Origin: Deltaproteobacteria bacterium
GTDB lineage: Bacteria > Desulfobacterota_D > UBA1144 > Nemesobacterales > CSP1-2
Reading direction: 5' to 3'
Assembly (NCBI GenBank): GCA_016187835.1
Contig: JACPIY010000001.1
Coordinates: forward strand, 27,722-77,740
DNA: 50,019 nucleotides
Shown here: positions 3,319 through 49,969 of the stretch, piece after piece
Numbering within the stretch: position 1 is the first letter of the stretch
Layout: each line of letters starts with the position of its first letter
Position numbers and translations under genes: made by a program
Notes under the pieces: generated by a model
Database searches by the model: none
The model's input: only the letters and a program-made list of their open reading frames with translations
Told to the model about the DNA's origin: nothing

Positions 3319-3346
3319 GTAGGGGCACGCTGCAGCGTGCCCCTAC
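3319..3346. repeat. 28-bp perfect palindrome GTAGGGGCACGCTG/CAGCGTGCCCCTAC
   Basis: Direct reading; arms are exact reverse complements, 19 nt after GT4 stop. Confidence 0.95.
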
Positions 3347-7940: not shown

Positions 7941-7968
7941 GTAAGGAACGCATATATGCGTTCCCTAC
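7941..7968. repeat. 28-bp palindrome GTAAGGAACGCATATATGCGTTCCCTAC
   Basis: One mismatch from perfect; same length and ends as the GTAGGG...CCCTAC family. Confidence 0.85.
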
Positions 7969-24960: not shown

Positions 24961-24988
24961 GTAGGGGCAATTCTTCAATTGCCCCTAC
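24961..24988. repeat. 28-bp palindrome GTAGGGGCAATT-CTTC-AATTGCCCCTAC
   Basis: 12-bp perfect arms, 4-nt loop. Confidence 0.95.
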
Positions 24989-31814: not shown

Positions 31815-31842
31815 GTAGAGACACAAAATTTTATGTCTCTAT
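31815..31842. repeat. 28-bp near-palindrome GTAGAGACACAAAATTTTATGTCTCTAT
   Basis: Same length/architecture as GTAGGGGC family, AT-rich core; related copy at 42898-42925. Confidence 0.8.
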
Positions 31843-44380: not shown

Positions 44381-44406
44381 GTAGGGCACACTGCAGTGTG
44401 CCCTAC
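44381..44406. repeat. 26-bp perfect palindrome GTAGGGCACACTG/CAGTGTGCCCTAC overlapping ntrB stop
   Basis: ntrB stop TAG (44403-44405, minus) is inside the terminal GTAG. Confidence 0.95.
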
Positions 44407-45696: not shown

Positions 45697-48020
45697 ATGC
45701 CACGTATTTTCGACAACATTGAGCAAGAACTCCTGCCCGCCTTGCGTGAAACACTTGAGGTGGCAAGCCGCGCTGATTTCTGCGTTGGTTACTTGAATCT
45801 ACGCGGATGGAAGCAAATCGATTCATATATCGAGCATTGGTCGGGTGGGACAGGAAATTGTTGCCGTCTCCTTGTCGGAATGCAGCGACCACCACAGGAA
45901 GAACTGCGAGCGGCAATGAGTCTGGTGAATCGCGATGGTGACATCGACAACCAAACTGCGCTGCGCTTGAAGAAGAAACTAGCTGAGGAGTTCCATGATC
46001 AGTTGAGCCTAGGCGTTCCTACCAACGAGGATGAGTCTGGATTGCGCCAACTCGCAGCCCAAATTAAATCCAAGAAGGTCGTTGTCAAACTGTTCCTTCG
46101 CCACCCCCTCCATGCCAAACTCTATTTGCTTTTTCGTCTCGATCCTATCAATCCAATCATTAGCTATTTGGGCAGCAGCAATTTGACTTTTGCAGGTCTT
46201 TCCCAACAGGGTGAACTGAACGTGGACGTGCTTGACCATGATGCCTGCCAAAAGTTGGCAAAGTGGTTTGAGGATCGTTGGAACGACCGTTGGTGTATAG
46301 ACATCTCGGATGAATTGGTGAAAATTATCGAAGGGAGCTGGGCACGAGAGGAAATAATCCCACCTTATCACATCTATGTGAAAATGGCTTATCACCTCTC
46401 ACAGGAAGCGCGCGCTGGTCTTTCCGAGTTCCGAATTCCTCGTGACTTTGGAAAGAAGCTATTTGAATTCCAAACAGCAGCCGTCAAGATTGCTGCGCGA
46501 CTTAGGTGAGACCGAGTTTATCCGCCGCCACCAATGTTCTGTTTGCTCTCTTGCGGCTTTTGAAAAAAGCGAATACGCCGATGATTGGCGTGAACTAATG
46601 CGCCTGTATCTTGTACGCCGCACACGTAGTTTCATTCAGGATAACTATGCCGAAACGGACCCAACCAACGAGCGCAAGTTTCTCACATTTGAAGATGGCA
46701 CGCGTTCTTACTTTCCAACACGTGCTCCGAGAACTATAAAATTCAATATTAACGATGATAAACCTGATGATCAGTATGCAAAGCTCTATGCTTCAGATGT
46801 AGTTGATACGATTAATAGTCTAAACCTCCCGCGTTATGGTTTAGGCAACTACGTCTCTGCCTCGCCGCATGAGCCACCGACTCAAACCGAGGCCAAAGTT
46901 CTTCAGGATCTTTCCCGTGCAGGCAAGCGCCTTATGGGCTTTTGCCGCACCAACCTCTTTAAACGGCTGGAAAGCGGCGGGCAAGCATTCCTTCAATCCG
47001 TTGAACGTCATATTTCACGTAATTACGTATTTCTGCACGCCATCGAACAAGGACAACCGCTTCCTATTGGTACTCAAGATGCAGGACTACTTGATTCTCG
47101 AATAAATGATGAGGACGAAGACATCGGTGTTGTAGCCGGATTGTTTGATGAAGATGATAGCAACGATAATGTTTCTGTAGGGGCGAGGCATGCCTCGCCC
47201 CTACGCAATGAGGATGATTTCAAACGTCGAGCTTCCGAGGTCTATGCCGAGTATGTCACACAATACAAACACCGCTTCAAATGGCTTCGTCCTACTTTGT
47301 TTGTCAAAACGCTCGCTAAAGACTTACTTAGCGACGCCCATGCTTTACTAAAGGTACTGGAGAAGTGCGGTGAGTGGGATGCTGATAAGGATGCCAAGGT
47401 TAATGCGCTCACAAAACTTCTAACGAAGGAGCACCCAAACGAAAAGGTCATTATCTTCACACAGTTTGCCGACACGGTGCGCTACATTGAATCTCAGCTC
47501 AGAGCGTGCGGCATCTCCCAAATGGCTGGAGTAACTGGCGACTCGCCAGACCCAACTGCTTTGGCGTGGCGGTTCAGTCCTGTTAGTAACAACAAGCGCG
47601 GCCAAATGAAACCTGAAGATGAACTCCGCGTTCTCATCGCCACCGATGTACTCAGTGAAGGGCAGAACTTGCAGGACTGTTCTACCGTTGTAAATTACGA
47701 CTTGCCCTGGGCTATTATCCGTCTCATCCAGCGCGTCGGGCGTGTGGACCGAATCGGACAGCAAGCTGAGAACATACTTTGTTATTCGTTCCTCCCTGCT
47801 GACGGTGTAGAGCGCATCATCCGCCTGCGTGCTCGTGTGCGTCAGAGATTGCAAGAAAACGCAGAAGTTGTCGGAACGGATGAGGCTTTCTTTGAGGACG
47901 ACCGTAATGACCAGGTGGTGCGCGACCTGTTCACAGAAAAATCGGGTATCCTCGACGGCAATGCCGACACCGAAGTGGATTTAGCCTCTTACGCTTACCA
48001 AATCTGGAAAAACGCTATCT
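45697..48020 (+). pseudogene. PLD-nuclease/SNF2-type helicase, internally deleted and frameshifted
   Basis: N-part HPLHAKLYLLF...YLGSSNLTFAGLSQQGELNV (HKD); stops at 46509 and resumes in another frame at LGETEFIRRHQC...; C-lobe NEKVIIFTQFADTVRYIESQL...LIATDVLSEGQNLQDC..VVNYDLPWAIIRLIQRVGRVDRIGQ; no Walker A or DEAH motif present. Confidence 0.85.
47177..47204. repeat. 28-bp perfect palindrome in frame inside helicase CDS (encodes V-G-A-R-H-A-S-P-L-R)
   Basis: GTAGGGGCGAGGCA/TGCCTCGCCCCTAC. Confidence 0.97.
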
Positions 48021-48021
48021 G

Positions 48022-49935
48022 GAGATTAGAGAGAGACTTGCCAGCGGCGAAATCCGTGACATCAACGACCTCATCACATATAACCTCGACATCCGTCAGT
48101 TTGCTCAGGATGTAATAGAGAACTGCGAAGGACCTGAACTATTAAGAGCCTTTTATCATGCAATCGAGAAGGTTACGATTCTCGACCCAACCTGCGGCTC
48201 TGGTGCGTTCCTATTTGCTGCGCTTAACATCTTAGAGCCTCTTTACGAGGCGTGCCTTGAGCGTATGAAAGCGTTTATTTCTGACCTTGAACTTTCTGCT
48301 GAAAAACACCGACCAGAAAAGTTCAGCGATTTTCGCAAGGTTCTGGAGCGTGTAGGTCAACACCCCAACCCACGTTACTTCATATTGAAATCCATAATCG
48401 TGAACAACCTATTTGGCGTTGACATAATGGAAGAGGCGGTTGAAATCTGTAAACTGCGTCTCTTCCTCAAATTAGTAGCTCAAGTGGAACAAGTAGAAAA
48501 CATAGAACCCCTTCCCGACATTGACTTTAATATCCGCGCCGGTAACACGCTTGTCGGGTTTGCAAACTACGACGAGGTCAAGAAAGCCGTCACCAGTAAA
48601 TTAGATTTCGACAACACGATGAAGCGGATTGAAGAAAAAGCCCAGGACATTGACCGATTGTTTGGACTCTTCCGACAGCAACAGACGGAACTCGGTGGAG
48701 AAGTAACGCCCGATGATAAACAAGAACTTCGTAATCGCCTGAGGGTTCTTGAAGATGAACTCAACCGCTACCTTGCTGGTGAATATGGCGTAAGTGTAGG
48801 GGCGGGGTCACCCCGCCCCTACGAACAATGGCTTGCCTCTCATAAGCCTTTCCACTGGTTCATCGAATTCTACGGTATCATCAACAGCGGCGGGTTTGAT
48901 GTGATTATCGGAAATCCACCGTATGTTGAATATAGCAAAGTAAAAAATGAATATACAGTTCTCAATTATGAGACAGAAAGCTGTGGGAATCTTTACGTTT
49001 TCGTAATGGAAAGGGCGCACAATATTCGAATTATAGGCGGGCGTTTAGGATTAATTTTACCGATTTCACTTACCGCGGCACAAAGAATCAGGCCATTACA
49101 AGAAAAGCTATTAAATGAGAATTCGGTGGTTTATCTAAGCAATTTTGGTTTACGACCAGCAGCTCTTTTCCCTGGTATTATGCAACGCCTAACCATATGT
49201 TTGACTTGCAATGGTAAGAAAAGTGTTTTATATACAACTGATTACATTACATGGTACACAGAAGAGAGAGATATTCTGTTTAAGGCAATACAATATATTT
49301 CATCAAACGGATTAAGGTTGTCATACAGTATTCCGAAGATAAACAATCCAATTGCTCAAAAAGCATTATTGAAAGTACGTTCTGTAAGAATGTCCGGTAA
49401 CTACCAGGATTTCAAGGGTGATTTTTGTATCTACTATCATAACGCTGGTGGATATTGGATCAAAACATTCGATTTTCCGCCTTATTATCGCTCAATAGTA
49501 AATCCTAATAAAAGACACACAACCATATCAGAATTGAGACTGCCAAATGAAGATCTGACTACAATATATTTATGCGTTCTTAATAGCAGCCTTTTTTATT
49601 TCTTTTGGAAGAGTCTTACTGATGCTCGTCATCTTTACCCGTCAGATGTAGCAATGTTTCCTATCGAACTTCCATTACCACCAAATTTGATTAATCGGTT
49701 GTGTTTGTTAAGAAGAAATTTAATGCAAGCCTACAGAATTAACTCAGAACGAATAGTTTACGGAAGAGCAGAAGTGGATCAGTTCAATGTGTTTCCCTGT
49801 AAACCCATTATAGACGAAATAGACCGCGCACTAGCACAGCATTACGGATTCACAGACGAGGAGTTAGATTTTATCATTAACTACGATATAAAATATCGAA
49901 TGGGGCTGGATAATATGGAAAGCGAAGGGGAATGA
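48022..49935 (+). pseudogene. Adenine-specific DNA methyltransferase (Eco57I/PglX-like), N-terminus missing
   Basis: Frame of ORF 48265-49935 extends upstream: ERLASGEIRDINDLITYNLDIRQFAQDVIENCEGPELLRAFYHAIEKVTILDPTCGSGAFLFAALNILEPLYEACLERM; NPPY motif at 48913-48924. Confidence 0.82.
48796..48822. repeat. 27-bp palindrome in frame inside methylase CDS (encodes V-G-A-G-S-P-R-P-Y)
   Basis: GTAGGGGCGGGGT-C-ACCCCGCCCCTAC, 13-bp arms. Confidence 0.97.
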
Positions 49936-49942
49936 AATTTGT

Positions 49943-49969
49943 GTAGGGGCGGGGTTACCCCGCCCCTAC
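49943..49969. repeat. 27-bp palindrome after methylase stop, identical to 48796 copy except loop base
   Basis: GTAGGGGCGGGGT-T-ACCCCGCCCCTAC. Confidence 0.97.

Follow-up and report, generated by a model that had tools for sequence, protein, structure and literature searches.

Introduction

TnpA_REP subclass 2.4, equivalent to RAYT group 4, is associated with 'double foot' REPs that carry 5′ GT[AG]G and 3′ C[TC]AC (Quentin et al. 2018, PMC6006769). According to the article text, the transposase gene itself also contains such REPs in frame, in the region from HuH to Y, and the subclass is common in Cyanobacteria and Bacteroidetes and scattered elsewhere (PMC6006769). The main text of Di Nocera et al. 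2013 (PMC3733652) describes RAYT-linked, GTAG-tagged palindromes of 20–40 bp, some of which lie in frame in many genes. In-frame REPs are therefore already known, from the in-RAYT REPs of subclass 2.4 and from the in-frame lists of Di Nocera et al., as far as these texts describe them.

Here we examined an in-frame palindrome in a 50,019-nucleotide stretch of a Deltaproteobacteria genome, hereafter the window. Judged by its features, it is very probably a double-foot REP of the TnpA_REP subclass 2.4 (RAYT group 4) type, with a resident RAYT-type HUH/Y1 transposase as the candidate mobilizer. An odd palindrome is thereby tied to a specific transposase class, and through their core the copies in the window connect to a RAYT gene of the same genome.

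Palindromes in the window

The sequence GTAGGGGCGAGGCATGCCTCGCCCCTAC at positions 47177–47204 is a perfect 28-bp palindrome (14+14 bp). It lies within the open frame 46442..48112/48115 and is read as VGARHASPLR. The coordinates and the translation given in the initial annotation were verified. The GTAG of the palindrome is base-paired with the CTAC at the opposite end, and RNA folding gave a hairpin of -24.6 kcal/mol (z = -6.7). The pattern GTAGGGGCG...CGCCCCTAC has 3 matches in the window compared with 0.00 expected in shuffled sequence. Chance was therefore rejected as the source of the palindrome. Its core, GAGGCATGCCTC, recurs inside a RAYT gene and in free copies at C103:30108-30135 and C83:13143-13170 of genome G000. 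The exact 28-bp palindrome was also found in three contigs of a viral collection (L072, L073 and L074).

Two more copies with the same arms lie less than 3 kb away; these and the following elements are given without strand. The copy at 48796–48822 (core GGGGTCACCCC) is read in frame as VGAGSPRPY in an Eco57I-type methylase ORF. The G001 orthologue of this methylase is without the element, and the window methylase has a net gain of 6 nt relative to it. The copy at 49943–49969 is intergenic, right after the methylase stop. Elsewhere the window holds at least two further same-arm copies, with copies at 3319–3346 (core ACGCTGCAGCGT) and 24961–24988 (core AATTCTTCAATT), plus palindromes with other GTAG arms. 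Among the latter, the copy at 7941–7968 (GTAAGGAACGCATATATGCGTTCCCTAC) has one mismatch to the palindrome in RAYT gene C84:38380, the element at 31816–31841 (TAGAGACACAAAATTTTATGTCTCTA) is a decayed member of the GTAGAGAC arm family, and that at 44381–44406 (GTAGGGCACACTGCAGTGTGCCCTAC) is a perfect GTAG...CTAC palindrome of a further arm type.

The host genes are damaged. A PLD-domain ORF (45697–46506, + strand) is the N-terminal part of a broken PLD-helicase gene, and the frame that carries the palindrome (46442–48112, + strand) is a C-terminal helicase fragment without the ATP-binding half. The methylase ORF (48265–49932, + strand) is N-terminally truncated. Compared with the G001 helicase orthologue (1151 aa, 81% identity over the shared part), the window helicase has lost ~440 nt, which include the Walker A and DExH motifs, and ~2.5 kb are missing in a second deletion that fuses the end of the helicase to the methylase. 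The only domain left in the helicase ORF is Helicase_C. The deletions are possibly an assembly error of the draft genome. Thus the initial annotation, which placed the palindrome in a helicase ORF, was right about the open frame, but this frame is a deletion fragment lacking Walker A. It is a relic, or possibly an assembly fault, and alone is no proof of a functional protein with the insert. The PLD-helicase and methylase cluster as a whole (45697–49932), broken by the two deletions, resembles phage-defence helicase/methylase genes. It gave distant matches to DISARM DrmD and BREX PglX, below their cut-offs.

Copy number and distribution of the palindromes

The pattern GTAGGGGCN{4,24}GCCCCTAC identified 43 copies with GTAGGGGC...GCCCCTAC arms in the genome. 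A second arm family, GTAGAGA...TCTCTAC, has 48 copies. Reversed controls of each pattern produced 0 matches in the genome. The 43 and 48 copies, all from one genome, are 27–35 bp long, which agrees with the description of REPs as short (20–40 bp), dispersed palindromes in many copies. About 10/43 GTAGGGGC copies fell inside ORFs of at least 110 aa in a mechanical ORF test; the family, like other REPs, is thus mostly intergenic.

Cores vary widely between copies and palindromy is maintained. At five inner positions left free by the pattern, 488/520 pairs (94%) from four genomes were Watson-Crick, and several pair types were present at each position. Among the matches listed, from named genomes, the palindrome occurs in Chloroflexota, Cyanobacteria, Poribacteria, Omnitrophota, Desulfobacterota, Planctomycetota and others. 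Among the papers listed for the bare string GTAGGGGC, none was relevant. For several abundant cores no intact RAYT was seen alongside. One of these, GCATTGCAATGC with GTAGAGAC arms, is present at G000 contigs C4, C8, C58, C59, C67, C71 and C78, and has no intact cognate RAYT among the genes read.

The initial annotation had likened the palindrome to Rickettsia palindromic elements, and its reading as a dispersed element translated in frame is supported. The annotation had also expected the peptide string to recur in an unrelated family. VGARHASPLQ is indeed found in G001, in a CusA-type RND transporter (L257), and VEARHASPLQ was found in a transposase of this genome.

Transposase genes with an internal palindrome

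Elements were found inside Y1/HUH transposase genes, 13–20 codons past the start of the MPNHxHG motif. A Pfam Y1_Tnp scan for RAYTs recovered mostly other subfamilies, which are without the element. A profile built from the element-bearing genes (A1) was needed to find this subfamily, and matched 17 times in this genome, with further matches in six other genomes. A GTAG...CTAC palindrome, intact or decayed, follows the HUH motif in 26/26 readable RAYT genes of this type, a universality that applies to seven genomes. About 20 of the 26 palindromes have at most two mismatches and the rest are decayed. In some genes (L323, L334, L336 and L337) at least two decayed palindromes stand in tandem in the same loop. 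Arms and cores vary between RAYT genes, with GTAGGGGC, GTAGAGAC, GTAGGGGT, GTAGGGAACG and GTAGGGACAG all represented.

RAYT gene G000:C103:30174-30725 carries the core of the helicase palindrome in frame just after the HUH motif, with two mismatches in the arms, and the perfect free copy on C103 lies just upstream of this gene. For the two arm types searched, an exact free copy exists elsewhere in the same genome for 10/12 intact gene-borne palindromes. For instance, the RAYT palindromes of G003 C63, G003 C8 and G006 C77 have five free copies each. No exact free copy was found for the RAYT palindrome GTTCAATTGAAC of this genome (C105) or for that of G001 (C29). REPs also flank the genes. An upstream copy with the same core up to the central bases is located 281–300 nt before the HUH codon in four genes (L314, L322, L330 and L331), and a downstream copy is present at L331 and L341.

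The RAYT subfamily was detected in 6/58 genomes of this phylum, which are exactly the genomes with at least two elements. Genome G060 has 8 elements, yet no match to the subfamily profile. The RAYT proteins match NCBIfam REP_Tyr_transpos with E-values of 1e-15 to 8e-21, short of its cut-off, and the closest solved structure to one of them is 4ER8, TnpA_REP. In the AlphaFold model of RAYT L090, which is of low confidence (mean pLDDT 55), the stretch encoded by the palindrome follows the HUH strand and precedes the next helix as a loop, itself of low confidence. Relatives from Leptolinea and Spirosoma plasmids and from two viral contigs have no clear palindrome in that loop. The in-loop palindrome is therefore not universal to the wider family.

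Orthologous sites in related genomes

The intact helicase of G001 has an element at the same codon, GTAGGGGCGCACGGCCGTGTGCCCTTAA, which is read as VGAHGRVPLR and has a core unlike that of the window. It is three positions off a perfect palindrome, each readable as a synonymous change. The ancestor shared with G001 probably had a REP at this site, where a different one now stands. Four other helicase homologues are without the peptide. A clean gap of 9–10 aa had been anticipated in homologues; none was seen, the outgroup linkers being only 1–2 aa shorter, with net gains of 1–4 codons among homologues.

In-frame palindromes were also identified within IleRS, ValRS, LeuRS and the DNA ligase LigA (L018, L019 and L043 of this genome; L256 of G006). 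An ECF sigma factor has one in frame inside region 2, common to G003 (L239) and G006 (L244). All coding sites checked in alignments were linkers or loops. Several sites hold different palindromes in different genomes. In a sigma-54 activator the bases next to the element are identical (GAAA then GTAG), and the element itself is GGTTCGCGAACC in G003 and ACGGCATGCCGT in G006. In ValRS the same codon is occupied in four genomes, with GTAGGGGC arms here and GTAGAGAC arms in G001 and G003. G006 ValRS has a one-sided intermediate, GTAGAGGC, that of G005 has a decayed copy and that of G004 none. LeuRS copies are decayed in G001, G004 and G005. An intergenic site also differs between this genome (L045) and G001 (L266). 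Exchange appears slow, since most sites shared by the closest pair, G003 and G006, have the same core.

The 28-nt element of IleRS makes the gene only 12 nt longer than five relatives without the element, so ~16 nt of the gene were lost. LigA gained 9 nt with its element (~19 nt lost). At a clean intergenic empty site (L388 compared with L380) the insertion is ~27–28 bp, without evident target duplication; in other intergenic pairs divergence was too great for a reading. In view of this clean insertion, the loss of target sequence seen in genes may be due to selection for reading frame and linker length and not to the insertion reaction. Counts of exchange and replacement are few and are treated as leads only.

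Alternative explanations

That VGARHASPLR is native to the helicase linker and the palindrome a coincidence has next to no probability. The initial annotation had held that homologues keeping the residues would mark the peptide as ancestral, and the nearest orthologue does have VGA....PLR at the same place. However, VGAHGRVPLR is a decayed palindrome with another core and the four more distant homologues lack the peptide, so the helicase peptide is element-derived. The same peptide class appears in unrelated proteins and identical DNA is found at intergenic sites; on the strength of the identical free copies an ancestral peptide was rejected. A GC-rich perfect hairpin would also suit an intrinsic terminator or attenuator of a defence-like gene cluster. 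This reading is very improbable and was likewise rejected, since the hairpin is not followed by a T-run, 2/3 of the clustered copies are inside open frames, and the family is genome-wide.

The hairpin is strong, and palindromes stay perfect through paired substitutions even in the coding sequence of ValRS. Selection on pairing rather than mobility might produce this pattern if a DNA or mRNA hairpin were useful at coding sites, through translational pausing, mRNA stability or protein binding. We consider this improbable. Occupied sites are polymorphic and lie in a scatter of unrelated genes. Decay of the copy is tolerated in the helicase of G001, in the ValRS of G005 and in the LeuRS of G001, G004 and G005, and relatives of IleRS and LigA manage without the element. 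Different palindromes at one site could also come from independent insertions, in which each sister genome received its own REP at one and the same permissive linker codon and no resident element was exchanged. Insertion is tolerated at few positions, given that the examined coding sites are all linkers or loops, and some elements are plainly recent and lineage-specific. Nevertheless, separate landings seem rather unlikely in view of the shared start base between identical neighbours in the G003/G006 sigma-54 activator and the shared ValRS codon in four genomes.

Proposed mechanism

Mobilization of a double-foot REP by a resident RAYT remains the preferred reading. We observed copy families with lineage-specific cores, a cognate core inside and beside a RAYT gene, insertion polymorphism between relatives and in-frame survivors in many genes. 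By analogy with other TnpA_REP enzymes (PMC8266576), the RAYT would bind and cleave the single-stranded hairpin with GTAG as guide. By the same analogy, copies would reach new sites, with single-stranded DNA as the probable form of transfer. Insertions into genes would mostly be lost. Survivors would be those that use one of the two TAG-free frames, change the length by a multiple of three and occupy a tolerant linker. Resident REPs would then probably be overwritten by other REP lineages, through the same enzyme or through conversion. On this reading, no separate function has to be assumed for the encoded peptide.

We tentatively propose in-place exchange of double-foot REPs. RAYT strand transfer, or conversion driven by the hairpin, may overwrite the palindrome resident at a fixed coding position with that of another lineage. 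Ten codons, sometimes in an essential enzyme, would then be rewritten at once, with the palindrome left intact. The first insertion into a gene may go with loss of a stretch of similar size, so that proteins gain few residues. If exchange in place is true, the orthologous sites in ValRS, LeuRS and the helicase preserve a natural record of how REPs have moved, and REP mobility by RAYTs, which is unproven, becomes directly testable. It would also suggest that essential enzymes tolerate the wholesale swap of a ten-residue linker.

Two observations seem to be new, as no description of them was found in the article texts consulted. Different palindromes occupy orthologous coding sites of sister genomes (helicase, ValRS and sigma-54 activator), and the IleRS and LigA elements replaced ~16–19 nt of gene.

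Comparison with known systems

As described in the article of Quentin et al., REPs of subclass 2.4 have GT[AG]G as one foot and C[TC]AC as the other, flank their cognate RAYT gene and reside in it between HuH and Y; the palindromes reported here share all three features. They differ in two ways that the article text was not found to describe: copies also occupy essential genes in frame, and the palindrome at an orthologous site can differ between genomes. In the GTAG REPs of the Di Nocera et al. main text the tag is unpaired and at one end only, whereas here GTAG pairs with CTAC; the string GTAGGGG is absent from that main text.

Rickettsia palindromic elements are likewise palindromes read in frame in many proteins, a likeness of behaviour only. 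The suggestion that the palindrome is a different, shorter element of its own type did not hold, as its features match those of a REP class already known and associated with RAYT transposases. The REP/BIME system of E. coli, with its TnpA_REP (4ER8), also combines GTAG-footed hairpins with a related HUH/Y1 enzyme. E. coli REPs differ in that they go with another RAYT group and are imperfect palindromes with a required bulge (PMC8266576).
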